Shown here piece after piece: positions 2,835 to 34,136 of a stretch of 42,073 bases of DNA. The stretch is from Minisyncoccota bacterium (GTDB lineage Bacteria > Patescibacteriota > Microgenomatia > UBA1400 > PJMF01). Each line of letters opens with the position of its first letter. The first letter of the stretch is position 1. Where the stretch lies: the NCBI GenBank assembly GCA_009991965.1, contig JAACWQ010000004.1, forward strand, positions 1-42,073, read 5' to 3'. Made by a program: the position numbers and the translations under genes. The notes beneath the pieces are model-generated. The model was not told where the DNA came from. It did not search any database and worked only from the letters and a program-made list of their open reading frames with translations.

Positions 2835-3952
2835 ACTTTTTGTAATATGACTTCGTACTGCTTCGCAGTACGCTCTATTGTATAGTGCGCCAAAAATCTC
2901 TGGTGACCTGCGCTGCCCAAACGATTTGCCAGACTGTCGTCTGTGAGCAGGCGAATTATATTATCTGCAAACGCCTGCAAATCCCCATCTGATGCAAGTA
3001 GACCAGTTTTGTTGTGCATAATAATTTCATTACCTGGCCCATGATCAAATGCAACAACCGGCTTGCCAAATGCCATTCCCTCACAAGATACCAAACCAAA
3101 TCCCTCAAGTGGCCAAATAGATGGAACAGCGCATACTCTCGCAGTTGCCAAGATTTTGAGTGCATCGGGCACACGACCAGTGCAAGTGATCGATTTTGAT
3201 AATTGCAGTTTTTTTACCAGCTTGCGAACAGTTGCCAAAAATGCACCCTCACCAACTAAAGTCAGATGTGCGTGAGGAATTTTTTTCTGCACTATCGCAA
3301 AAATCTTAACCAATAGATCTTGCCCTTTTCCCGCTTCCATCCGTGAGATACAAATTATTTCTGGTTTTTTTGGGAGTGTTGCAAACGGTGCAGGGCGAAT
3401 ATTGCGGCCGCAGGGAATCATCGCAAGTTGCTGTTTCGTCAAAATCTTTTCTGCCAACAAACCTCGCTGTGAGTGGCGCGAAGAGGTTATTACTGTTGCA
3501 ACAAATTTGGCAGCGAGCTGATACCAAAACCGAGGTAATCCAAAGAATTTATCAAGTACTGTAGCCATTGGGGCAAACTCTATCCAAACTACCGAGACGC
3601 CAAAGACTCTCGCCCACCATGAGACGAATAGTTTTTCGGCAAAACCAGAAATGAGGAAGACGTCTACTTTGCGCTCCTTCCAAACAATCAGACCATAGAT
3701 AATCCAAGCAGCTGGCAACAATATCGCTGCCTTCAGTAATCCTTTCCAGTCACCAATAATATCGATCTCTACGGGAATGCTTTGCGCCGAAATCCCCTGT
3801 TGTTGCAGTAATTTTTGAAACGGTTGGTAGTTTGTGTATGCCGTCACCGCATGCTGCTTTTGTGCCAACGATCCAAGTAGCTCACTCACAAAGGTCTCAG
3901 CGCCACCCAAGCCAAACGTTTGCGAAATATAACAAATGCGAAGTGGCTTCAC
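2825..3952 (-). CDS. Glycosyltransferase family 4 (GT-B), first paralogue
   Basis: Retaining GT-B glycosyltransferase with the glycine-rich N-terminal loop (QTFGLGGAETFVSELL) and the C-terminal donor-site signature PLEGFGLVSCEGMAFGKPVVA, whose EGFG...E pattern is typical of GT4. It has 375 residues, a normal length. It starts with GTG, and the GTGA at 3949-3952 overlaps the stop (TGA) of the upstream glycosyltransferase, indicating translational coupling. A hydrophobic patch around residues 75-95 may help peripheral membrane attachment. It is likely part of cell-surface polysaccharide or glycolipid assembly with its two neighbours; substrate unknown. Confidence 0.9.
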   Translation of the reverse strand: MKPLRICYISQTFGLGGAETFVSELLGSLAQKQHAVTAYTNYQPFQKLLQQQGISAQSIPVEIDIIGDWKGLLKAAILLPAAWIIYGLIVWKERKVDVFLISGFAEKLFVSWWARVFGVSVVWIEFAPMATVLDKFFGLPRFWYQLAAKFVATVITSSRHSQRGLLAEKILTKQQLAMIPCGRNIRPAPFATLPKKPEIICISRMEAGKGQDLLVKIFAIVQKKIPHAHLTLVGEGAFLATVRKLVKKLQLSKSITCTGRVPDALKILATARVCAVPSIWPLEGFGLVSCEGMAFGKPVVAFDHGPGNEIIMHNKTGLLASDGDLQAFADNIIRLLTDDSLANRLGSAGHQRFLAHYTIERTAKQYEVILQKVCQ

Positions 3953-4923
3953 TTTTTACTCCACAGCTCATGGTACTGTTGGGCTAGTTTTTTCCATGTT
4001 TGTTTGTGACTCCACGAACGCGCGGCAGCTGCTAGCGGAACTAGGTCTGTGTATGCAGCAACAATTTGTGTGGGAGAATTTGCAATCGAAATCCAAGACG
4101 CAAACGGCGTCATTTGCAAGTAATCTTTTTTAAACTCGGTTTTGGCATATGCGATAACTGGAACGCCCGCAGACAAGCTCTCTAGGATTGCTAAGTATTG
4201 ACTCACAAAGGCGCAGGAGTATCGACCGATCAATGCGCCTGCATTTGGTACAAAGCCATAGAATGTTACTGGCAGTTTGTGCCGTCGAACGTACTGTTCT
4301 GCCCAGGATCGCTGACTGCCTTCGCCATAAACATCGAGGTGAATTTTACTGCCATTTTTCTTTGCCAATGCAACTGCTTGCATGTAACTACCAAATCCCG
4401 TATCTGACTCTAGTCTTCCAATAAATACAGCTTTTTTGATTGTGGTATGCGGTTGTTTTTGCACTCTTGCAACTGCGCCGTAGGAAATTTGGTTACTCGT
4501 TACTCCATACCATTTTGTGTGAAAGCCACCGATACAGATAGTGCCTCGTGTTAGCCACGAAGCTAACTGATGCCAAAACTTCTGCGTCTGACTTGGCCCT
4601 GCGACTGACTCATAACCATGAAATGTTATATAGATTCGCTTCCACCAAAGGAGGGGCAAAAAAGGCAGCAGCCACCAAAAAACATCGTGCACATGAATGA
4701 TTGCTGCTTGCCACAATGCCGGCAGTTGTCGAAACATTCCGGCCCAAACTGCAAGTTTGTGCGAACGAATTCCCCCTGAGTGATCTAACAACATCTGTTC
4801 ATTGAGAATCGAAGAATGATAACCAAGCTTTTGTAACTCAGGAATCAGTTGCGACAAATGTGACTCAACCCCACCAATTTGCGGTGCAGAACGACGAGCG
4901 AGATGAAATACTGTTTGTTGCAT
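3949..4923 (-). CDS. Glycosyltransferase family 4 (GT-B), second paralogue
   Basis: GT-B glycosyltransferase with an IGGVESHLSQLIPEL N-terminal loop and a C-terminal domain including AVFIGRLESDTG, VYGEG and ILESLSAGVPVIAYA (donor-binding Glu region). An upstream in-frame start at 4965 exists, but it would run into the divergent dus gene. I chose ATG 4923 because GGAGA lies 5 bases before it and homologous N-termini begin near this point. First gene of the glycosyltransferase operon. It is read from a palindromic -10 shared with dus. The terminal TGA (3949-3951) overlaps the next gene's start and shows that UGA is a stop here. Confidence 0.87.
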   Translation of the reverse strand: MQQTVFHLARRSAPQIGGVESHLSQLIPELQKLGYHSSILNEQMLLDHSGGIRSHKLAVWAGMFRQLPALWQAAIIHVHDVFWWLLPFLPLLWWKRIYITFHGYESVAGPSQTQKFWHQLASWLTRGTICIGGFHTKWYGVTSNQISYGAVARVQKQPHTTIKKAVFIGRLESDTGFGSYMQAVALAKKNGSKIHLDVYGEGSQRSWAEQYVRRHKLPVTFYGFVPNAGALIGRYSCAFVSQYLAILESLSAGVPVIAYAKTEFKKDYLQMTPFASWISIANSPTQIVAAYTDLVPLAAAARSWSHKQTWKKLAQQYHELWSKK

Positions 4924-13732: not shown

Positions 13733-15916
13733 TTACTCCTGTATTTCTCCTGCTTCAACGCTACGCAGGTGATCCATTATAGCTGATACCATTACTTCTC
13801 GTGGTTTACTGCCTTCTTGGGGGCCAACCATGCCAGCCGCGTGTAGTTGATCCAAAATGCGCGCTGCACGATTATATCCAACTGAGAATTTTCGTTGAAT
13901 CATCGACGATGAGCCCTTGCCCGCACTAGCTGCATACTGCGCTGCTTGAGTAAACAATGGATCGCGATCTTCTATTTGTACTTCTCCATCGGTTGCAATC
14001 GAACTTCCACCCTTACCAGTCATCGTGTACTTTGTGGTGACATCATCTTCGTACTCTGGCTTCTGACCCTGCGCCTTGATGAAATCTATGAGTGAACGAA
14101 TTTCGCTATCTGAAACATATGCGCCTTGGATTCTTGAAGGCTTTGCTTGATCAGGTGGAATAAACAACATGTCTCCACGTCCAAGCAGTTTCTCGGCACC
14201 TGGCGTGTCAAGCACAACTCGAGAATCAGTCATAGAAGAAACGTTGAAAGCTATGCGAGCAGGAATATTTGCTTTGATTAAACCGGTAATGACGTCAACC
14301 GATGGTCGTTGTGTCGCCAACACCAAGTGAATACCAACTGCACGTGCCATTTGGGCAATCCGAGTAATACTCTCTTCTACCTCTGCTGGAGCAAAAAGCA
14401 TCACATCTGCTAACTCATCGATAATAATGACAATACTTGGCATGGCAGAATGACCAGCGAGTTCGTTGTAGCCCGCAATATTTTTGACACCAACCTCTGC
14501 CAATTTCTTATAGCGCTCCTCCATTTCGTGCACTGCCCATTTGAGGGCCGAGACAACCTTCTTCGGTTCGACGATAACTGGGACGAGGAGATGTGGAATA
14601 TCATTGTAGCCAGTCAATTCAACACGTTTTGGATCGACCAAAATAAAGCGAACTTCGGCTGGACTGGCGCGGAACAACATTGAACACATAAAGGCGTTAA
14701 TCGCGACTGACTTACCAGATCCCGTGGCACCAGCAATCAGGACGTGTGGCATCTTGGCAATATCCATAACCACGGGCTGACCTGCAACGCTGATACCCAG
14801 TGAGGTAGCGAGCTTGGACGGATGCTTCTTCATCTGTTGCGAGGCGAGCATTTTTCGCAGGGTAACGTACTGTGCGGTGTAATTTGGCACTTCGACGCCG
14901 ACCAGCGAACGTCCTGCAATCGGAGCTTCGATACGAATCTGTCCTGTTGGAGCAGCCAATGCGAGCGCAAGATCAGTTGCGAGTCCAGTAATCTTTGAAA
15001 GCTTGGTGCCACGGGTAATTTCTAATGCGTATTGCGTCACAGACGGACCATAATTTACCTCAGACACTTTTGCTTTGATGCCAAAAGAGTCGAGGGTTGC
15101 CTCAATCGTTGCCGCATTCTTCCGCACATCACCGCGGTCTGCCTCACCACCTTCTGATTCATTCAAAAGTGACAATGGCGGATACTCCCAAATCATCTGG
15201 GCGTTTGAGGGAGTAAAGCCAGCTGGTAACTCACCGTCTTTGCCTGCTTGGGCGATTTGCCTGGCAGCCTCAACAGCTGTGCCAGTTTTGCTTGTCGGGT
15301 CTTCCTCGATCGCTTTTCCTTGGTTAATCTGAAATGGTGTCGCCCCCCCAGTTTTGCCAAATGGAAAGGTAATTTTGGGAAGTGACAATCTACTTTTAGA
15401 TTTTGGCTCCTCACTTGCAGCAGCAATATCAGCCGCATCTTTTTTCTGTCGCAGGCTAGCGAGCCAATCGGCCAGCTCAACAAACGAGGTTTGGAACAAG
15501 ACAAGTAACCCAGCAACAAGGACGGCTAAAAAGAGAAAGTAGCTACCGATGGGTGTGAGTAATGCACCAATGTTTGCAGCGGTGACTACGCCAACACTAC
15601 CGGTCTGAAAAAACCCAAGTATACCGGTAAAACAAAGTACAGCGCCCAAAAATGAGTGTGGTCGTGCCCAAATCCAACGACTGCGAAAGAATACCACTCC
15701 ACCTGAGAAAAACAAGAATGGCAAAAGCAACGCGGATAAACCCAACTTTGCGAACAGAAATGCATTAATTGTCTGAAGTAATTTGCCTTGCCCAGAGAAT
15801 GAAACGATAACTAGAATGCCGCAGAGAAACAAAGTCACTGCAGCCAAAGAATGCAGGGTGCCATCTTTCAATTGCAGTGGTGATTTTTTCTTGTTTCTAC
15901 GCTTACGTTTCTTCAT
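13733..15916 (-). CDS. ftsK: DNA translocase FtsK/SpoIIIE
   Basis: Hexameric DNA pump that clears chromosome ends through the division septum. There are four N-terminal membrane helices (residues ~22-145) and a short linker (~150-245), much shorter than in E. coli. The motor has Walker A GATGSGKS at 396-403, Walker B IVIIIDELAD and the LVLATQRPS motif. The C-terminal gamma winged helix (FSVGYNRAARILDQL) reads KOPS-like polarity sites. 727 residues, typical for compact genomes. A TATAAT ends 8 bases before the ATG, suggesting a leaderless mRNA. Confidence 0.96.
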   Translation of the reverse strand: MKKRKRRNKKKSPLQLKDGTLHSLAAVTLFLCGILVIVSFSGQGKLLQTINAFLFAKLGLSALLLPFLFFSGGVVFFRSRWIWARPHSFLGAVLCFTGILGFFQTGSVGVVTAANIGALLTPIGSYFLFLAVLVAGLLVLFQTSFVELADWLASLRQKKDAADIAAASEEPKSKSRLSLPKITFPFGKTGGATPFQINQGKAIEEDPTSKTGTAVEAARQIAQAGKDGELPAGFTPSNAQMIWEYPPLSLLNESEGGEADRGDVRKNAATIEATLDSFGIKAKVSEVNYGPSVTQYALEITRGTKLSKITGLATDLALALAAPTGQIRIEAPIAGRSLVGVEVPNYTAQYVTLRKMLASQQMKKHPSKLATSLGISVAGQPVVMDIAKMPHVLIAGATGSGKSVAINAFMCSMLFRASPAEVRFILVDPKRVELTGYNDIPHLLVPVIVEPKKVVSALKWAVHEMEERYKKLAEVGVKNIAGYNELAGHSAMPSIVIIIDELADVMLFAPAEVEESITRIAQMARAVGIHLVLATQRPSVDVITGLIKANIPARIAFNVSSMTDSRVVLDTPGAEKLLGRGDMLFIPPDQAKPSRIQGAYVSDSEIRSLIDFIKAQGQKPEYEDDVTTKYTMTGKGGSSIATDGEVQIEDRDPLFTQAAQYAASAGKGSSSMIQRKFSVGYNRAARILDQLHAAGMVGPQEGSKPREVMVSAIMDHLRSVEAGEIQE

Positions 15917-15969: not shown

Positions 15970-17625
15970 CTATACATCAAGTATAACTGGTACGATAAGT
16001 GGCTCACGCTTGATAATTTTATAGAGTTTGCGTGCCAGACGCTTTTCGATCATATGGCGCAATGCCTCGTCTTTTGTCTTCTTTTCTCTGGAGACAATAT
16101 CTGCAACTTCTTGTTTGATAAACTCGATCACTTCTTGGGCATCTCGTACAAAGATAAAACCGCGCGAAATAACTTCCGTTTGCCGAAGATCAAAACCATT
16201 TTGCCCACGGATAAGCACAACAACCACAATACCTGCCTTGGAAAGCGCAATTCGATCGGCCAAAACCATCGGTCCGACATCTCCGATACCAAGTCCGTCA
16301 ATGATTGGTGGTTTAAGATCAACGTGACCGACCGTGCTCGCACTTGTGGCCGTCAATTCAAGTATATCGCCAGAACTCGGCAAAAGTACGTCATGTACAG
16401 AATAACCCAATGGCTCTGCCACAGACTCAAAGAACTTGTAGCGATGGCGATCTGCGCCACCGATCGGCAAAATAAACTTTGGTCGCACGAGCTCAAGTAA
16501 TTCTCGCTGCTCTGTCATGCTGGCATGACCAGATTGGTGCAATCCTGGCAATACATCTGGGTACACAACATGTACTTTATTGCGAGCAAGCTCGTCTATT
16601 GCGCCAAAATAATTTAGTTCGTTACCGGGAATCGCGTCTGCCGAAAAAATTACCGTGTCATCATCAGTGATCTTGATCATGCGATGCTCACCATAAATCG
16701 CCCGCATCATCGAAGAACCCTCTTGTCCCTGACTACCAGCAACAATCACACACAGCATTTTATCTGGGTATTGATTCATATCATTTTTGTCGATCAAAAC
16801 ACCTTCGGGAAAATGCAACTTGTGCAAACGCATCGCCTCGGCAATATTGCGTTCGACCGAGCGACCAATAAACGCGACTTTTCTGCCAAGCCTACTCGCC
16901 GCATCTACAACTTGTTGAATCCGGTGAATGTGCGAACTCATCAGTGTAATGACACTTTTCCCTCTAGTTTCTGCCATAATTTCTGCAATCACTGGCCCAA
17001 CAGTTCGCTCAGACGAAGTACGTACCGTCCGCTCGACACGCAAACAATCGATGAGCATGCACAAAACACCTTCATCGCCAATCGCTTTAATCGAAGCAAG
17101 ATCACTTGGCTCTCCATCTACTGGGGTCGGATCGAGCTTGAAGTCACTCCCGTGGTACACGATGCCCACTGGAGTACGAATCACAATATGACGGGTATCT
17201 GGCACAGAGTGTGTAATGGGAATCAACGAAGCGGAAAACGACCCAAGTGTAAACGGCCTGGTGTTATCGATCACGGTTACTTTGTGCTCTGTCCCTGCTT
17301 CACGCATACGATCCTCTGCAAATCCGGCAGTCAGTGGCGAGGCATAGATTGGAAAGTTTGGCAGATGTGGCAAGATGTGCGCGGTAGCTGCAATGTGGTC
17401 GTCGTGGCCGTGACTCAAAATCATACCAACAATTTTTTTACCTGCTTGCAGCTGCTCCAAAACATACGAAATATCTGGGATCAAAATGTCAACGCCAGGC
17501 ATCTGTATATCAGGAAAACCAATGCCACAATCAACGAGCAAAAGCTCATTTTCGTACTCGTACACGTACATATTTTGGGTAACGACACCGCTCCCACCGA
17601 GAGAAATTATTTTTAAACCATTCAC
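15970..17625 (-). CDS. rnj: Ribonuclease J
   Basis: Metallo-beta-lactamase/beta-CASP ribonuclease with endo- and 5'-3' exonuclease activity, central to mRNA turnover and rRNA maturation. The zinc motif SHGHDDHIA (H72, H74, D75, H77) is intact. The beta-CASP region follows (TLMSSHIHRIQQVVDAA, VIVAGSQGQEGS, QSGHASMTEQRELLELVRPKF) and then the C-terminal domain. 551 residues is normal. It starts with GTG 17625, which shares GTGA with the upstream gene's stop. AGGAG lies 7 bases before it. PNPase, a usual partner in decay, is at the other end of the window. Confidence 0.96.
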   Translation of the reverse strand: MNGLKIISLGGSGVVTQNMYVYEYENELLLVDCGIGFPDIQMPGVDILIPDISYVLEQLQAGKKIVGMILSHGHDDHIAATAHILPHLPNFPIYASPLTAGFAEDRMREAGTEHKVTVIDNTRPFTLGSFSASLIPITHSVPDTRHIVIRTPVGIVYHGSDFKLDPTPVDGEPSDLASIKAIGDEGVLCMLIDCLRVERTVRTSSERTVGPVIAEIMAETRGKSVITLMSSHIHRIQQVVDAASRLGRKVAFIGRSVERNIAEAMRLHKLHFPEGVLIDKNDMNQYPDKMLCVIVAGSQGQEGSSMMRAIYGEHRMIKITDDDTVIFSADAIPGNELNYFGAIDELARNKVHVVYPDVLPGLHQSGHASMTEQRELLELVRPKFILPIGGADRHRYKFFESVAEPLGYSVHDVLLPSSGDILELTATSASTVGHVDLKPPIIDGLGIGDVGPMVLADRIALSKAGIVVVVLIRGQNGFDLRQTEVISRGFIFVRDAQEVIEFIKQEVADIVSREKKTKDEALRHMIEKRLARKLYKIIKREPLIVPVILDV

Positions 17626-18430: not shown

Positions 18431-18436
18431 ATTATA
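18431..18436 (-). promoter_or_regulatory. Extended -10 box overlapping the upstream stop codon
   Basis: TGT-TATAAT on the minus strand ends 8 bases before ATG 18422. Its internal TAA (18434-18432) is the stop codon of the uracil-DNA glycosylase gene. Confidence 0.55.
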
Positions 18437-19064
18437 ACAATGCTGTAGCCACTTGTTGCTTAAACATTTTTGTCTCGTGTTGCTCCTGCACCCAAACAAG
18501 TGCTTTGGGAATTTTTTGCATATCGAGAATAAATTGCTCTTTTGTGCGGGTTGCTCTCAGCGCTGCAGCTGGATGATACATCGGGAGGACATACTGGTTC
18601 TGCTCGTTCCAGACTACTTGATGTAATCTGCCATGTACTTGCGAAATACGTACGTCTGGTAAAAATTTAGCCATCGAAAATCTGCCCAATGTGACGATCA
18701 ACTTTGGTTGCAAAATGGCAATTTCTTGATTGAGATACGGTCGAAATGCTTCAATTTCTTCTGGTGAGGGATCTCTGTTGTCTGGCGGGCGGACTTTGAC
18801 AATATTTGAAATGTAGTACTCTTCTGGAGCAAGGCCAATCTGCTCTAAAACTTGACGTAGGAGTTTGCCGGATCTGCCGACGAATGGTCTGTGATCAACA
18901 CTTTCTTGATAACCAGGGGCCTCACCTATAAAAAGAATATCCGCCGTCGGTGATCCTTCGCCAGGAACAATATCTGACTGAGATCTCGCCAGCAACAAAT
19001 TGCCGAGTGATGCTTCATTTTGTAGCGTTGCATAGAGTTCAACAAGCTGCGCTGCTGCATTCAT
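18432..19064 (-). CDS. Family-4-like uracil-DNA glycosylase lacking Fe-S cysteines
   Basis: Should remove uracil from DNA at the start of base-excision repair. Family 4 features are clear: VPGEGSPTADILFIGEAPG (residues 33-51), RPFVGRSGKLL, NIVKVRPPDNRDPSPEEIEAFRPYL (88-111), TLGRFSM and MYHPAAALR (162-170). Family 4 enzymes normally carry four cysteines binding a [4Fe-4S] cluster: a CxxC near the N-terminus, then VKCRPP and a Cys ~16 further on. Here the N-terminal pair is absent, the third is V91 and the fourth is F107. The 210-residue protein has no cysteine at all. ATG 19064 follows TGT-TACGAT by 6 bases. Confidence 0.88.
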   Translation of the reverse strand: MNAAAQLVELYATLQNEASLGNLLLARSQSDIVPGEGSPTADILFIGEAPGYQESVDHRPFVGRSGKLLRQVLEQIGLAPEEYYISNIVKVRPPDNRDPSPEEIEAFRPYLNQEIAILQPKLIVTLGRFSMAKFLPDVRISQVHGRLHQVVWNEQNQYVLPMYHPAAALRATRTKEQFILDMQKIPKALVWVQEQHETKMFKQQVATALL

Positions 19065-19088: not shown

Positions 19089-20147
19089 TTAGTATTGTGG
19101 CAAAAATATCTTTTGATTTTCTGGCGTAATGACAATTTTTGGATAATTTTTTTCGACGATAATTCGAGCAGCCTTGCGTACTGCACCCTCAAGCGTCCGC
19201 TTGAGCGTACGAATACCAGCATCATATCCGAGTGGTCTGGTGATACTCGGCCACACGCTCTCTGCCATCACAAACTGTTCTGGACGTAAACCAGATTTTT
19301 TGAGTAAATCTGGCAAAATATACTGCTGCGCAATAACAATTTTCTCATGATCGGTGTACGACGGCATCGTAATTTTCTCGAGACGATCCATCACCGCAGT
19401 CGCAATTGCGGTGGTGTTATTGGCGGTAGCTAAGAAAATCGCATGTGATAAATCGATCGGATAATCGATAAACGCATCGCGGAAAGAGTGATTCTGTGCT
19501 GGATCAAGCAACTCAACCAGTACACCCATGATGTCTTTGTTTGCTTCTTCGGCAACACGGTCAATTTCATCGAGCAAAATAACGGGATTACGCACTTTGG
19601 CCTCGACTAAACCCTTCACAATTCTGCCAGGTTCTGATTCTATGTTGAGGCGCGTACTTCCCCGCAACTCTTTGGCAGAACTCATGCCACCAAACGGAAT
19701 ACGGACCAACTTACGACCAAGCGCCTCGGACAATGAGTAGGCGAATGTCGTCTTACCCGTACCAACCAAACCAACGAGCAACAAAATTGGCGCCCGAAAT
19801 TCCTCATCTGCCATCTGTGTCTGTCGCAACTGTAATACGGAGATGTATTCCAAAAAGCGGTTTTTTACATCCTGCATACCAAAGTGATGTTTGTCGAAAA
19901 TTTGTTTCGCTGTTTCGATTGAAAGCCGATCAGTTGTTTCTTCTGTCCATGGAATGCCAAGCGTCCACTCGATATAGCGAGAAACTTTTTCATATTTTTC
20001 GTCATATGAACCAAGTGCCACTGAGCGCTCCAGAGCGACAATATCCTTGTCTACTTTTCGGCGCAATTCTTCTGGTAATGTCGCCGCCGCCACACGTGTG
20101 CGCAGTTCATCTATTTCTTGCTCGAGGAGCTTGTTGTAATCTTGCAT
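19089..20147 (-). CDS. Lon-type AAA+ ATPase without protease domain
   Basis: Closest to the central part of Lon protease. A helical stretch (LPEELRRKVDKDIVALERS...YIEWTLGIPW, residues 24-66) matches Lon's segment before the ATPase. Then come Walker A GLVGTGKT (126-133), FGGMSSAKELRGST (Lon pore-loop region), Walker B VILLDEID (189-196), sensor-1 ATANN (240-244), arginine finger MDRLE and sensor-2 GIRTLKR. The frame ends at residue 352, just after the small ATPase domain. Both the N-terminal LON substrate domain and the Ser-Lys protease domain are missing. ATG 20147 directly abuts the PfkB stop. It may act as an unfoldase or chaperone, or partner with a separate peptidase. Confidence 0.85.
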   Translation of the reverse strand: MQDYNKLLEQEIDELRTRVAAATLPEELRRKVDKDIVALERSVALGSYDEKYEKVSRYIEWTLGIPWTEETTDRLSIETAKQIFDKHHFGMQDVKNRFLEYISVLQLRQTQMADEEFRAPILLLVGLVGTGKTTFAYSLSEALGRKLVRIPFGGMSSAKELRGSTRLNIESEPGRIVKGLVEAKVRNPVILLDEIDRVAEEANKDIMGVLVELLDPAQNHSFRDAFIDYPIDLSHAIFLATANNTTAIATAVMDRLEKITMPSYTDHEKIVIAQQYILPDLLKKSGLRPEQFVMAESVWPSITRPLGYDAGIRTLKRTLEGAVRKAARIIVEKNYPKIVITPENQKIFLPQY

Positions 20148-21093: not shown

Positions 21094-21459
21094 TTAGTGA
21101 GGGACTCCAGTGGAGTGTTCTGTAGAGATGTCAAACCCCAACTCTGCCTTTGCCTCATCCGTCATCATGTCCTGCACCCAGGGCGGGTCAAAAACCAAAG
21201 TAATTGCCAAGTCGCGGTAGGGATCAAACCCAGGAATATCGAGCAATTGTTGTTTTACCAAATCTTCAAACACGTGCGCGAGCGGGCAACCAGGAGTCGT
21301 CAGCGTCATGGTAATCGTTGCTTCTAGTGGGACAACACCATCTGGCGCCACAACCTGGTAAATTAACCCCAAACTGACGATGTCGATACCAAGCTCTGGG
21401 TCGATAACGTTTGCTAAACCTTTCCAAATATGTTGTTCTAGTTCAGATTTTTTTGTCAT
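21094..21459 (-). CDS. sufT: MIP18/DUF59 family protein (SufT/PaaD-like)
   Basis: Small Fe-S-assembly auxiliary protein. VIDPELGIDIVSLGLIYQV (residues ~17-35) is the DUF59 signature (DPE.....LGL) and TMTLTTPGCPLAHVFEDLV carries the conserved cysteine motif (T.PGCP). 121 residues from ATG 21459. A GTG at 21471 is rejected because it lies inside the terminator stem. The rest of the SUF machinery is encoded further along the same strand (24.6-26.3 and 32.2-35.4 kb). The start lies only a few bases after a strong terminator hairpin, so how it is transcribed is unclear. Confidence 0.85.
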   Translation of the reverse strand: MTKKSELEQHIWKGLANVIDPELGIDIVSLGLIYQVVAPDGVVPLEATITMTLTTPGCPLAHVFEDLVKQQLLDIPGFDPYRDLAITLVFDPPWVQDMMTDEAKAELGFDISTEHSTGVPH

Positions 21460-21466
21460 ATACAAA

Positions 21467-21492
21467 AACACCCCCCATTGCTGGAGGGTGTT
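21467..21492 (-). terminator. Rho-independent terminator
   Basis: Read on the minus strand, AACACCCTCC - AGCAAT - GGGGGGTGTT forms a 10-bp stem with one U-G pair and a 6-base loop, followed by TTTTTGTAT. On the plus strand the same position would be a C-A mismatch, so the minus-strand reading is favoured. It ends the 69-residue small-protein gene (stop at 21515). Confidence 0.82.
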
Positions 21493-24093: not shown

Positions 24094-24633
24094 TTATTTT
24101 TTGATATCTTGCTCCCAGTCACGACCAAACCACAGACCGAGTGCGAGCTTTGCAATACTAGCATACTCTGTGGTGCGATCAACAAAATTGCGGGTAATCA
24201 CTCCTATTGCGCCCTGTTTTTGTTTGATGTTGTCGCCAGCGAAAAGCGCACTGACCGCTGGACCCATTTCTGCTCCAGCAGCGAGTTTGTCTGCGATTAC
24301 TTTTGGCAATTTAAAGCGTGCGCCATTGCTTTCATAGTAATTCCCTGCTGTATCGAGCACTGCAGCCCAAACTGTTGACCAGAGCTCACCATTGAAAGTG
24401 TGAACACCACCTTCGAGTCCAAGACCAAGTTGGGTTGTTTTTCCACCTGCTGTAAGGGCGGCTTGTGCCCGAGCGCACGCGCCCTGGCGAGTTTCTTCGT
24501 CGCTGCGCGGTTGCTCTGAAACACCACTCTGGACTTCGAAACCTGCAACAACTACATCTGGCCACTGACCTTGGGCGGCAACACGTACTGCATTGAGTTT
24601 TACTGGGTTGGTGCTACCGACTGCGATTTTCAT
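24094..24633 (-). CDS. yjjX: Inosine/xanthosine triphosphatase (YjjX/NTPase family)
   Basis: House-cleaning enzyme that hydrolyses non-canonical ITP/XTP. The N-terminus MKIAVGSTNPVKLNAV is the family substrate loop. Further motifs are SDEETRQGACARAQAAL, GLGLEGGVHTF and the C-terminal GAIGVITRNFVDRTTEY. 179 residues from ATG 24633, which overlaps the sufU stop as ATGA. A longer frame to 24681 is rejected because homologues start at MKIAVGS. Coupling to sufU is unexpected functionally. Confidence 0.9.
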   Translation of the reverse strand: MKIAVGSTNPVKLNAVRVAAQGQWPDVVVAGFEVQSGVSEQPRSDEETRQGACARAQAALTAGGKTTQLGLGLEGGVHTFNGELWSTVWAAVLDTAGNYYESNGARFKLPKVIADKLAAGAEMGPAVSALFAGDNIKQKQGAIGVITRNFVDRTTEYASIAKLALGLWFGRDWEQDIKK

Positions 24634-25004
24634 GTTTTTGCTAACAATTTTTGTACCGTGTTTAAACCAAGAAGTAAACACTTCTTGCGGGCAGTGGAAA
24701 ATGACTCAATACCAAGCCAACCAAGGAGTGTTTGTTCGTCCCAAGCAAGTACTTCGATAACCTTTTTTCCTCGGATATGGTCTGAAAGTAAACTCAGGCT
24801 CGCTGTACTGATGACGCAACCAGTCCCTTCCCAAGACAAGGTTGAAATACTCCGTTTGTCATCGCTTAGTTTGAGAAAGATGTGGCAGCTATCACCACAA
24901 GAATTGGTCGCTGGTGGAGAGCTGAGGTCAGCATCTGGCAACTGCCCTTTATTGTGAGGGTTGCGTGCCGCCTCGAGTAGTTCTTCGTGATATAGATCGT
25001 CCAT
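24630..25004 (-). CDS. sufU: SufU-like Fe-S scaffold / sulfur acceptor
   Basis: IscU/SufU family protein receiving sulfur from SufS. Conserved ligands are visible: NSCGD (C36, D38), EGTGC (C63) and ARKKC (C109), matching the Cys-Asp-Cys-Cys zinc/sulfur-transfer site of SufU. The N-terminus LYHEELLEAARNPHNKG is also typical. 124 residues, about 20 shorter than the B. subtilis protein. It is encoded 10 bases after sufS on the same strand. Confidence 0.9.
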   Translation of the reverse strand: MDDLYHEELLEAARNPHNKGQLPDADLSSPPATNSCGDSCHIFLKLSDDKRSISTLSWEGTGCVISTASLSLLSDHIRGKKVIEVLAWDEQTLLGWLGIESFSTARKKCLLLGLNTVQKLLAKT

Positions 25005-25014
25005 CAGATTCTTT

Positions 25015-26268
25015 CTATACTTTGAAAACTTGCCGCACTTTTGCCAAACCAGTTACGAGCGCATCAATGTCTGCTGTCGTATTATAGATGTTGCAGCTTG
25101 CCCGCACACTCGCGACCCAACCAAACTGCTCATGCAGTGGCATTGTGCAGTGATGGCCACTGCGAACTGCCACACCGACACTGTCGAGCACCTGCGCTAC
25201 ATCGTGGGCGTGAACACCTTTGTAAATGAAAGCTACAGAGCCAACGCGATCGACTTCACTTTCACTAAAATCCTGCGGGCCGATGATTTCTAGTTCTGGA
25301 ATTGCTGAGAGTTTTTCGAGCGCATAGAGTACCAGTTCCAAATCGTGCTGACCGACATCACTCATGTGCAATTTGGTGAGATACGCGCAGGCTGCTGCTA
25401 GACCAACTGCGCTGGCTACATCTGGTGTACCAGCTACAAACCGCTCACTGAGTTCATCGGTGAAAGTAGTCGCGTCTTTGGTAACCGCGGCAATCATACC
25501 GCCACCAAACAACCATGGTCGCATTTCACCAGACTGCAGTAGCGATTGGCGAACAAGTAAGCCACCAATCCCCATCGGACCGAGCATTTTGTGGCCACTA
25601 AAAACGAGAAAATCTACATCTAGTTTGGCAAATGAAACAGGAATGTGCGGTGCAGACTGCGCAGCGTCGATGAGTATACGAATGTCTGGTTGCAGCGCGC
25701 GGGCTTGCACAATGATTTCTGCAACTGGATTGAGTGTACCGAGTGTATTTGAAACGTGTGTGAGTGCGAGCAACCGCACTTTTGGTAATGAAAGTTTGGC
25801 TGCAAGTGATTTTTGGTCTAACCGTCCCTCTTTTGTGATCTCGATGTACTCGACAGTGGCGCCGGTGCGCCGGGCAAGTTCTTGCCAACACACAATGTTT
25901 GAGTGATGCTCCATGAGCGTGGTGAGAATAATATCGCCAAATTGTACATTGTGATCGCCCCAACCATACGCAACGCCATTGATTGCTTCCGTCGTATTGC
26001 GCGTAATAATCAATTCTTCTGGATTGGCATCAAAAAACTTTGCAATCGTAGCCCTACTCTCGTCCCAAACTTGCGTGCTTCTGTCTGAGAGCTGATGGAC
26101 ACCGCGGTGCACATTGGCATTGCTTGTCTGGTAATACTTGGTAATTGCGTCAAGAACTACTTGTGGTTTTTGGCTCGTAGCCGCGCTGTCGAGATAGACA
26201 AGTTTCTCTCCCCGTGGATTTTGGGAAAAAATGGGAAAATCTTGGCGAATAGTTTTTGGGTTGAACAT
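25015..26268 (-). CDS. sufS: Cysteine desulfurase SufS (group II)
   Basis: PLP enzyme that takes sulfur from cysteine and passes it to SufU. It shows YLDSAATSQKP, the TTEAIN/THVSNTLG segments, the PLP lysine in FSGHKMLGPMG (K227) and the persulfide cysteine in VRSGHHCTMPLHE (C374), a group II/SufS pattern. 417 residues from ATG 26268; a TTG 12 bases upstream is rejected. It follows the first glycosidase-like gene by 8 bases without a visible promoter, so it may be read from the promoter of that secreted-protein gene. Confidence 0.95.
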   Translation of the reverse strand: MFNPKTIRQDFPIFSQNPRGEKLVYLDSAATSQKPQVVLDAITKYYQTSNANVHRGVHQLSDRSTQVWDESRATIAKFFDANPEELIITRNTTEAINGVAYGWGDHNVQFGDIILTTLMEHHSNIVCWQELARRTGATVEYIEITKEGRLDQKSLAAKLSLPKVRLLALTHVSNTLGTLNPVAEIIVQARALQPDIRILIDAAQSAPHIPVSFAKLDVDFLVFSGHKMLGPMGIGGLLVRQSLLQSGEMRPWLFGGGMIAAVTKDATTFTDELSERFVAGTPDVASAVGLAAACAYLTKLHMSDVGQHDLELVLYALEKLSAIPELEIIGPQDFSESEVDRVGSVAFIYKGVHAHDVAQVLDSVGVAVRSGHHCTMPLHEQFGWVASVRASCNIYNTTADIDALVTGLAKVRQVFKV

Positions 26269-26276
26269 CCTGGTCT

Positions 26277-27506
26277 TCAAATCCTTACATCAAAATTGGC
26301 AACAATGGTCGCTAGATCATCGGCATTTATAACACAGTCCCCGATTTGGTTGTACGCACAGTTTTGCTGCATATAATACTGATAATCCAAGTTGTAATCA
26401 AAAATGTCAACTTGATTATCTTTATTTAGATCCCCCAGCAAAGGAATCGGACTAGGTGAAGGGGTTGGTGTGGGAAAAGGTGTGGGAACTGGAGTTGGAA
26501 TTGGGGTTGGCAACGGTTGCGGACAATACCGAGTAGCGTAATCATGAAACACTGTGTATGTCGGCCTTTTTCTACCCGTCGCATCAATCAGTCCCATTCT
26601 CAAAGTGTCTGCAAAATCCATAACTGTATGAAATGACGCGATCTCAACAAATGAGAACTCGTTTGAAAGCAAACGATCAAACGTTTGACGCAAATAATCC
26701 GCTGCCTCATTTTCTGAAATGCTATGTTCGTAGCCCTGGGCGACATTCCACCCATACTCAGTCATCCAAATCGGTTTGTGATATTTTTCGTACATGTGCT
26801 TAACACCATCTAAATTGGCTGGACCAAACCAGTTGTACGGATGCAAAGTCATCACATCATACGATCTCCCGCCAGGACTATTGTGCAATACGTCCATAAA
26901 TCCTTCATCGTTTCCGTCTAGTCCACCCACAGAAAGCTGAATCTGAGGATTTATTGCTTTTAAAGTTTTGTAGGTGACATCGAGCCAGTATGCATACTCT
27001 CGCACTGACTCTTCAGTATTTCTGCAGCCGTCCACATTCGAACCACAGCCATTTTGTTCATTCCAAAAAATATATCGATTCACCTGAGGATGCCTGGTAG
27101 CAAGAGCACGAATAAATTGTTCGTAATCTGCTTGTGCGTCTCGTCTCGGCAAAGCTTTGTGTGGTGGTAAATTACCCTCCTTTGCCCAATCAGGAGTACA
27201 ACAAATCATCACAGTATTACCTAAATTTCTGGCCTCAGCTTGCGCTAAAGTCGAGTCAAAAAGGCTGAAATCAATTGCGCCTCGAGTTGGCTCGGCAATA
27301 TCCCAATTTACGGCCAAACCCACGTAGGTAGCGCCAGCTTCCTGAATTGCTGCATAAACAGCGGGTTCATCCGTAGCTTTGTTGAGACCAAACAGCAGCG
27401 GACGAGTTGTGTTTTGGCAAGTTGGATCAGCTGCGCAAACGGGTGAGACTAGATATAACAAGCAAAAAAATACTGAGAACAATAAAATGCCTGTCAATCG
27501 TTTCAT
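26277..27506 (-). CDS. Secreted GH-A clan glycosidase-like protein with dockerin-like tail (copy A)
   Basis: Signal peptide (MKRLTGILLFSVFFCLLYLVSPVCA) then a (beta/alpha)8 glycosidase-like domain. FWNEQNG (E150) fits the acid/base Glu and WMTEYGWN (E250) the nucleophile Glu, as in GH39/GH5-like enzymes. A Pro-Thr linker (PTPIPTPVPTPFPT) leads to GDLNKDNQVDIFDYNL and a second, weaker repeat NQIGDCVINADDLATI, the duplicated calcium-loop layout of type I dockerins. Seven cysteines lie in the mature domain. The start is ATG 27506, 7 bases after TACAAT. It is a tandem paralogue of the next upstream gene. Its glycan substrate is unknown. Confidence 0.82.
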   Translation of the reverse strand: MKRLTGILLFSVFFCLLYLVSPVCAADPTCQNTTRPLLFGLNKATDEPAVYAAIQEAGATYVGLAVNWDIAEPTRGAIDFSLFDSTLAQAEARNLGNTVMICCTPDWAKEGNLPPHKALPRRDAQADYEQFIRALATRHPQVNRYIFWNEQNGCGSNVDGCRNTEESVREYAYWLDVTYKTLKAINPQIQLSVGGLDGNDEGFMDVLHNSPGGRSYDVMTLHPYNWFGPANLDGVKHMYEKYHKPIWMTEYGWNVAQGYEHSISENEAADYLRQTFDRLLSNEFSFVEIASFHTVMDFADTLRMGLIDATGRKRPTYTVFHDYATRYCPQPLPTPIPTPVPTPFPTPTPSPSPIPLLGDLNKDNQVDIFDYNLDYQYYMQQNCAYNQIGDCVINADDLATIVANFDVRI

Positions 27507-32183: not shown

Positions 32184-32206
32184 GTTATTAAGTATTGCTT
32201 AATAAC
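32184..32206. repeat. A+T-rich inverted repeat behind sufD
   Basis: GTTATTAAG-TATTG-CTTAATAAC, nine perfect base pairs with a 5-base loop, beginning at the sufD stop codon. No T-run follows on the minus strand, so it is a weak terminator candidate or a 3' stabilising hairpin. Confidence 0.45.
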
Positions 32207-32709
32207 TAAATCTGATTACTAGATTCTACCCCCAAAAACCCCTCCACAATCAACTTCTCCGCTTCTTTTCGACTCACCCCGCGACTCATGAGATAAAACA
32301 GTTGGCTCTCTGGGATAGAGCTGATACTCGCCGCGTGCGAACACTTGACATCATCGGTCAAAATCTCAAGCTCTGGTACCGCTTCCGCTTTGGCCTGTGG
32401 TGAAAGTAGGAGGATTCGCTCAGTCAAAAAAGAATTGGTATCCGGACAATCCGGATCAATTTTTATTTTCCCCCAAAAGGAAATGAAAGCGCTGTCTGCA
32501 ACCACGCCGTGCAATTTAGTTTTTGCTAGCGTGTGTGGTGCTTGGTGATGGATCGTAATTCTAATGTTGATGCGCTCACTGCCAGTAGCGTGAAAACTGC
32601 CGCTGAGTGTAAACTCCACTCCTGGTTTGGTTAAAAAGTACTCGTACTCACCAGGCTTGGAAACGGTGATACTTTGTGACTCGCTGATAGTTGTTTGGAT
32701 TGCAGACAT
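32206..32709 (-). CDS. sufD: Short SufD-like Fe-S assembly protein
   Basis: SufB/SufD beta-helix core protein reduced to 167 residues, against about 400 in standard SufD. The retained part is the C-terminal core: IKIDPDCPDTNSFLTERILLLSPQAKAEAVPELEI matches the SufD stretch with conserved P-E-L-E-I, followed by DDVKCSHAASISSIPESQLFYLMSRGVSRKEAEKLIVEGFL. That ending parallels the end of SufB next door. It overlaps sufB by one base (TAATG). It probably forms a SufB-SufC2-SufD scaffold in reduced form. Confidence 0.85.
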   Translation of the reverse strand: MSAIQTTISESQSITVSKPGEYEYFLTKPGVEFTLSGSFHATGSERINIRITIHHQAPHTLAKTKLHGVVADSAFISFWGKIKIDPDCPDTNSFLTERILLLSPQAKAEAVPELEILTDDVKCSHAASISSIPESQLFYLMSRGVSRKEAEKLIVEGFLGVESSNQI

Positions 32710-34136
32710 TAGCCGATGCTCCCTGCCATCTCGTGATCGATGAGTCGATTCATCTCAACCGCGTACTCCAATGGTAGTTTTTTGATCAAATCACCGATAA
32801 AGCCATGCACGATCATTTTGCGAGCAGCTTCTTCGTTGACGCCACGACTCATGAGGTAGAACAACTGCTCGTCGCCAATTTTGGAGACTGTTGCTTCGTG
32901 CTGGATTGCTACATCAGAAGCGAACACTTTATCGACTGGATAGGTATCTGAGCGCGACTCTGGGTCGAGCAAAAGCGCGTCGCAAATGACTGAGTTTTGG
33001 CTGTGATGGGCCTTGGGCCCAACAGAAACTAGACCGCGGTAGCTCGTGCGGCCACCATTTTTACTAATAGATTTTGAGACAATTGTGGAGCTCGTATACG
33101 GTGCCAAGTGAATCGCCTTGCTGCCGGTATCCTGGTGTTGTCCCTCGCCCGCTAGCGCCATGCTGAGGGTCTCACCCCTGGCACCTTTACCCGCCAGGAT
33201 GAAACTCGGATACTTCATGGTCACTTTGGAACCCATATTGAAATCCGTCCAGATCATTTCGCCTTCGGTCTCTACGCGAGCGCGTTTGGTGACGAGGTTA
33301 TAGACATTTTTGTACCAGTTTTGAATGGTAGTATATTGGCAGCGTGCGCCAGCTTTGACATAAATCTCGACGACTGCGGAATGGAGCGAGCCGCTCGAGA
33401 AACTTGGTGCTGTACAACCTTCTACATAATGCACTTTTGCCCCTTCATCAACGATAATCAGTGTGCGCTCAAACTGGCCAGCATTAGGAGAGTTGATGCG
33501 AAAATACGTTTGGAGCGGCAGCTGGACGTTGACGCCTTTTGGAATATAGACAAATGAACCACCCGACCAAACTGCGGAATTCAATGCCGCGAAAGTATTA
33601 TCGCCGCTCGGGATCAATTTGCCAAAGTATTCTTTGACCAAATCAGGATACTGCGCCAAACCCTCATCCATCGAGAGAAAAATGACGCCGTCTTTGGCGT
33701 AAGCAGCTTTGAGTGAGCCGTAGACAACTTCGCTGTCGTACTGGGCTTTGACGCCTGCCAAGACGCCACGCTCTGCTTCTGGAATGCCGAGTTTATCGAA
33801 AGTTGCTTTGACCTCTGGTGGCACGTCGTCCCAAGATTTTGACGGCGCATCGGTTGGCTTCAGGTAGTAATGAATGTCCTCAAATGCAATGGCCGACAAA
33901 TCTGCACCCCAAGGTGGCAACTGCATGTGCTCGTATTGCTCAAACGCTTTTAGACGCAGCTGGTGCATCCAGTCTGGCTCGTCTTTCATCGACGAAATTT
34001 CTTCTACTACCCATTTTGATAATCCAGGCTTGGCAATATGCTTGTAACTCGCCGTCGAAGAAAAGTACCCATGCTCATAGTTGGTGTCTTGACTTGGAGT
34101 AAAGGCGGTGGTGTTTTTCTGCGCAAACCGAGCCAT
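32709..34136 (-). CDS. sufB: SufB Fe-S cluster scaffold subunit
   Basis: Core scaffold on which Fe-S clusters are built, with SufC and SufD. 475 residues, normal length. It has the long beta-helix region (GGSFVYIPKGVNVQLPLQTYFRIN, VDEGAKVHYVEGCTAP), the SKSISKNGGRTSYRGLVSVGPKAHHSQNSVICDALLLD segment and the end HEATVSKIGDEQLFYLMSRGVNEEAARKMIVHGFIG. ATG 34136 overlaps the NUDIX stop by one base (TGATG). The gene is noticeably G+C-richer than the nearby 29.5-32 kb stretch. Confidence 0.96.
   Translation of the reverse strand: MARFAQKNTTAFTPSQDTNYEHGYFSSTASYKHIAKPGLSKWVVEEISSMKDEPDWMHQLRLKAFEQYEHMQLPPWGADLSAIAFEDIHYYLKPTDAPSKSWDDVPPEVKATFDKLGIPEAERGVLAGVKAQYDSEVVYGSLKAAYAKDGVIFLSMDEGLAQYPDLVKEYFGKLIPSGDNTFAALNSAVWSGGSFVYIPKGVNVQLPLQTYFRINSPNAGQFERTLIIVDEGAKVHYVEGCTAPSFSSGSLHSAVVEIYVKAGARCQYTTIQNWYKNVYNLVTKRARVETEGEMIWTDFNMGSKVTMKYPSFILAGKGARGETLSMALAGEGQHQDTGSKAIHLAPYTSSTIVSKSISKNGGRTSYRGLVSVGPKAHHSQNSVICDALLLDPESRSDTYPVDKVFASDVAIQHEATVSKIGDEQLFYLMSRGVNEEAARKMIVHGFIGDLIKKLPLEYAVEMNRLIDHEMAGSIG

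Follow-up and report, generated by a model that had tools for sequence, protein, structure and literature searches.

Can a family-4 uracil-DNA glycosylase (UDG) do without its iron-sulfur cluster? Enzymes of this family are known to bind [4Fe-4S] through four cysteines and are commonly described as the [4Fe-4S] UDGs, the cluster being discussed both as a structural element and as a redox sensor. The question is raised by one gene in the window, by which we mean the whole analysed stretch of 42,073 nucleotides. Its ORF at 18432-19064 reads on the minus strand from an ATG, and the plus strand there has many stops. The initial annotation had described the product as holding no cysteine anywhere, and the translation indeed has 0 cysteines in 210 amino acids. 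It is the only PF03167 gene returned by a profile search of the whole genome, a Patescibacteria draft assembly of 854 kb in 26 contigs that is 93.6% complete. The gene and its sites are as follows:

18432..19064, minus strand: cysteine-free family-4-like UDG, 210 aa (profile matches, structure model)
18996..19007, minus strand: L20 to L23 codons, L-x2-L in place of the family-4 N-terminal C-x2-C (alignment)
18909..18926, minus strand: motif A region, G47-E48-APG to Y52, with E48 conserved (alignment)
18774..18806, minus strand: DNA-facing loop from N87 to R97, with R92 and R97 retained (alignment)
18792..18794, minus strand: V91, third ligand column, VKC changed to VKV (alignment)
18744..18746, minus strand: F107, fourth ligand column (alignment)
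18567..18575, minus strand: motif B, H164-P165-A166 (alignment)

Identity and descent of the cysteine-free gene

The family motifs listed in the initial annotation, GEAPG (47-51), RPFVGRSGKLL, RPPDNRDPSPEEIEA and MYHPA, are all present. We take N87 to be the Asn of the uracil pocket, and the roles of the loop residues are likewise assumed from what is known of family 4. Profile searches gave 174.1 bits with the family-4 model TIGR00758 (cut-off 125.3) and 124.6 bits with the Pfam UDG model (cut-off 24.3). An AlphaFold2 model built from a 55-row alignment had a mean pLDDT of 96.7 and a pTM of 0.92, with no segment below 50, and its best structural matches were 4zby (Z 27.2), 4zbx (27.1), 1ui1 (26.6) and 1vk2 (26.3). 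Z reached 26-27 for six family-4 entries and was lower for UdgX (23-25), family 5 (19.9) and TDG. In the family-4 matches 181-188 residues were aligned and the ranges in the model began at residues 1-6; thus, the former cluster region is covered and the N-terminal segment is held in place in the model without cysteines.

A family-5 identity was rejected, as the sequence comparison gave 35.9 bits for family 5 (2d3y, Z 19.9) against 135.7 bits for family 4 (Z 27). A UdgX identity was rejected as well, with 95.7 bits to TIGR03914 against a cut-off of 189.95 and no KRRIH insertion. The suggested comparison with families 4, 5 and UdgX by profile and structure therefore puts the protein nearest family 4 on both counts. 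Its score, active-site motifs (GE[AG]PG, the Asn and HP[AS]), fold and common descent are those of family 4, and the four cysteines are missing; since it has no cysteine at all, we class it as a family-4 derivative that lacks the cluster rather than as a canonical member.

An error of sequencing or assembly could in principle have removed the cysteines, the genome being a draft in 26 contigs. The initial annotation had held that close homologues with the cysteines restored would point to such an error. The same-genus orthologue (81% identity) likewise has no ligand cysteines, and the ligands are absent from every usable UDG of the organism's family, in independent assemblies; at locus L029, whose N-terminus is masked, the single C in the ligand columns is an alignment artefact. 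The same-genus pair gave a dN of 0.13 and a dS of 1.40, that is, a dN/dS of about 0.09, a ratio that is approximate since dS is high. Four separate codons are changed in an intact ORF under selection and the relatives' assemblies share the cysteine-free state, so that sequencing error is excluded, its chance being negligible. The window UDG is a genuine, conserved, cluster-free family-4 derivative.

Gene order gives a picture of its descent. The conserved neighbours are:

13733..15916, minus strand: FtsK/SpoIIIE-like translocase (named from sequence; gene order)
15970..17625, minus strand: RNase J, downstream of the UDG gene (profile match, gene order)
19089..20147, minus strand: Lon-like AAA+ ATPase, upstream of the UDG gene (profile match, gene order)

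The Lon-like ATPase lies upstream of the UDG gene in the window clade and in some other Patescibacteria. The order UDG-RNase J-FtsK is common to the window clade and to two Chloroflexota loci with all four cysteines (L040 and L059), which marks the gene as vertically inherited, with loss of the cluster. A phage origin was rejected, as phage relatives all showed less than 60% identity (about 43% for the best listed); it is also opposed by the four phage sequences examined, which keep two to four ligand cysteines. A phage-annotated family-4 UDG (L313, record MW462191.1, locus 10-840) has only 2 of the 4 ligand cysteines and reads IPWRPPGNR where VKCRPP is expected, and a phage DNA polymerase (L312, MW202455.1) bears an N-terminal four-Cys family-4 UDG domain.

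Ligand columns and the number of losses

Aligned over 210 rows, the window UDG has L20, L23, V91 and F107 in the four ligand columns, just as the initial annotation had read V91, F107 and the missing CxxC. For ligand statistics near-duplicates were removed from the 210 aligned loci, leaving 71 sequences without any ligand cysteine and 104 with three or four. All 71 of the former have an aromatic residue in the fourth column (Y in 44, F in 27), where the latter have C in 104/104; the second column is mostly Leu in the cysteine-free set (50/71). Both sets show virtually no variation at E48, E54, F61, R97 and H164, and very little at N87 and R92. The DNA-facing loop of family 4 lies between cysteines three and four and carries two arginines of importance, which the window UDG retains as R92 and R97.

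Our in-depth survey covered Patescibacteria and their Chloroflexota neighbours. Ligand patterns ranged from CCCC (68 loci) and CCHC (27) to types without any of the cysteines, with CCYG, ECYC and KCYF in between, and ligand loss across the surveyed phylum is graded and repeated. A His serves as third Fe-S ligand in the CCHC UDGs (L088, L115, L116 and 24 other loci), as it does in UdgX; the third column also holds Ser or Thr in some Chloroflexota loci and Asp in two Patescibacteria loci. One genome (G072) encodes two family-4 UDGs, one of CCHC type and one cysteine-free with LSDY (L122 and L123).

How many times the cluster was lost was examined on a 60-row tree inferred after removal of the ligand columns. 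Here the window UDG is nested among CCHC and CCCC rows, and its clade groups with cysteine-free UDGs of other Patescibacteria, adjoining CCHC sequences. Four changes between the cluster-type and cysteine-poor states were counted, and 0% of the bootstrap trees had only one. A single clade of all cysteine-poor rows was rejected by the AU test under one model (p-AU 0.018), for a group that was defined after the sequences had been seen and on a tree whose deep branches are weakly supported. A larger tree of 200 rows, built more quickly, agreed in kind: here the fully cysteine-free label changes 10 times, and starred branches force no fewer than 6 of these changes. Given the post hoc group and the modest deep supports, the losses cannot be counted with certainty, and the reading that these sequences favour is more than one independent loss within Patescibacteria.

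Scoring the Cys columns on a tree of homologues, as had been suggested, thus shows the window UDG nested in family 4 and no single origin of the cysteine-poor state. As for the "new subfamily" that the initial annotation had offered, the cluster-free version is real and clade-wide, but by tree and gene order it is a derived family-4 orthologue.

Cluster assembly and other repair glycosylases

The initial annotation had also pointed to SUF machinery, and the corresponding ORFs do lie within the window:

21094..21471, minus strand: SufT/DUF59-like Fe-S assembly protein, close upstream of the UDG gene (profile match)
24630..25004, minus strand: NifU_N/SufU-like protein, below the SufU equivalog cut-off (profile match)
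25015..26280, minus strand: SufS cysteine desulfurase (profile match)
32206..32709, minus strand: short SufD-like protein (profile match)
32709..34136, minus strand: SufB (691 bits, cut-off 346)

Of the SufBD core, the SufD-like proteins of the window genome and related genomes span just the C-terminal half.

The presence of SUF had been thought to make the loss of the cluster surprising. This expectation gains no support, and neither does the relocation of repair away from oxidation-sensitive cofactors that the initial annotation had suggested, as SUF is equally common with and without the UDG cysteines: SufBD matches were found in 14/38 ligand-kept and 14/41 ligand-lost genomes (p 0.82). The same counts bear on the idea that the UDG lost its cluster after the cell had lost cluster assembly. 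Though 52/80 genomes have no SufB or SufD match, the window genome encodes SufB, SufD and SufS and has two radical-SAM matches as well, and with the SUF counts above we rejected this idea for the 80 genomes and regard it as very improbable.

The sole HhH-GPD protein of the window genome resembles MutY (181 bits to TIGR01084, whose cut-off is 286) and has no C-x6-C-x2-C-x5-C motif (L242, G000:C10, HhH-GPD match 3758-4105). The MutY of the same-genus relative (L241) likewise has no [4Fe-4S] motif. Nth was not found in the 93.6%-complete window genome, and neither were matches to UvrC (TIGR00194), the DEAD_2 helicase (PF06733) or the AP endonuclease families Exo_endo_phos (PF03372) and AP_endonuc_2 (PF01261); these last three absences (AP endonuclease families, UvrC and DEAD_2) are weak, as the draft is incomplete to that degree.

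Perhaps UDG, Nth and MutY of Patescibacteria shed their Fe-S clusters together, as one broader trend under a shared pressure, for instance iron economy or oxidant exposure. Such a pressure would add a cause to the explanation that we prefer and would not exclude it, and we hold it possible, if somewhat doubtful. Besides the motif-free MutY-like protein and the lack of DEAD_2 helicase and UvrC matches in the window genome, it is favoured by the Nth motif, which is kept in 12/12 UDG-kept genomes vs 9/17 UDG-lost genomes (Fisher p 0.009, relatedness ignored), and by MutY, which is clusterless in 14/20 UDG-lost genomes (one of these, G053, being a fragment). On the other hand, with relatedness allowed for, the co-loss of UDG and Nth comes down to 2-4 independent pairs, too few to reach significance; thus, we treat co-loss as a lead. 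The MutY comparison has a single UDG-kept genome with MutY on its other side, two genomes of the window organism's own family (G016 and G030) keep an Fe-S MutY beside a cysteine-free UDG, and there is no association with SUF presence.

The clusterless MutY-like protein and the Nth and MutY proteins of several relatives, which also have no Fe-S motif, fit the general idea of the initial annotation, repair moved off Fe-S cofactors, at a level that is not significant once relatedness is counted. That Patescibacteria have repeatedly stripped [4Fe-4S] from the unrelated UDG, Nth and MutY, some of them, the window genome included, keeping SUF and radical-SAM proteins, is a more speculative proposal still, and we consider it rather unlikely as it stands. 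If true, base excision in such cells would run without the redox cluster on which damage search relies in the DNA charge-transport model.

Proposed working and comparison with known systems

The reading that we prefer, and consider quite likely, is that the window UDG is a family-4 orthologue that works without [4Fe-4S] and most likely excises uracil in the usual way. The UDG fold is predicted with confidence and all conserved active-site positions are kept; uracil excision itself would follow from sequence and model. In cluster-bearing family-4 enzymes the N-terminal segment is anchored by two of the cysteines and the DNA-contacting arginine loop by the other two. In the window UDG the hydrophobic L20, L23 and V91 and the aromatic F107 take the place of these anchors; judging from the substitution patterns and the confident model, they probably pack together where the cluster used to sit and keep the DNA loop in position, which would then rely on packing rather than on Fe-S for its anchoring during excision. 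On this reading the cluster disappeared in a patescibacterial ancestor and, independently, in other lineages of Patescibacteria, probably because the family-4 cluster is structural and not catalytic. According to PMC5295032, the Pyrococcus and Archaeoglobus family-4 UDGs lose only about 40% of their activity on Cys-to-Ser changes, and the substrate-binding loop is stabilised by the cluster. Weighing against this reading, no AP endonuclease of the Exo_endo_phos or AP_endonuc_2 families, which would act after uracil removal, turned up in the 93.6%-complete genome.

The protein might instead have kept the fold and ceased to excise uracil, as a binder of uracil-DNA or a remnant. UdgX binds uracil-DNA rather than releasing uracil, and the window UDG does score 95.7 bits with the UdgX model and folds close to the UdgX structures (Z 23-25). 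Yet that score is far under the UdgX cut-off (190), the KRRIH insertion with its His is missing, the protein is closer to family 4 in sequence as well as in fold, the catalytic positions are conserved as in active family-4 enzymes, and the dN/dS of about 0.09 also speaks against it; we regard this alternative as improbable.

The window UDG is known in kind, cluster-dispensable glycosylases having been described; what is new is the spread, the repetition and the consistent aromatic replacement. No account of a cluster-free family-4 UDG in Patescibacteria was found in the open-licence papers searched. Natural losses that recurred, each time with an aromatic residue in the same ligand position, offer a clean test of what the cluster contributes, and such lineages also probe the need for redox signalling through DNA in base repair. 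A protein annotated as "family 4, Fe-S" need not contain a cluster.

The closest known systems are the family-4 UDGs (TthUDGa 1UI0, TM0511 1VK2 and S. tokodaii 4ZBX/4ZBY), which share with the window UDG the full-length fold at 32-40% identity, the GEAPG motif A, N87, the HPA motif B and the RPP-NRDP loop, and differ in that their four [4Fe-4S] cysteines are L, L, V and F here. UdgX of M. smegmatis (6AIL) belongs to the same superfamily and has the same fold (Z about 24), with a His in the third ligand column as in the 27 surveyed CCHC sequences; it has C-x2-C, the fourth Cys and the KRRIH insertion, whereas the window UDG has none of these. Where the aligned UdgX chain, a mutant, shows the insertion, the window UDG reads VKVRPPDNRDPS without one; the wild-type motif is, we assume, KRRIH with the cross-linking His.

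The clusterless MutY homologues are, like the window UDG, Fe-S DNA glycosylases minus the cluster, but their HhH fold is unrelated, and the MutY cluster is thought to bind DNA directly. For these proteins PMC5295032 has Trasvina-Arenas et al. 2016 in its reference list, and "clusterless" MutYs are mentioned in PMC11078426. The Pyrococcus and Archaeoglobus C-to-S mutants of family 4, as cited in PMC5295032, retain activity after removal of ligands, which compares with the cluster-free window UDG; those mutants were made in the laboratory, whereas the window UDG represents a natural lineage with replacement residues of its own.
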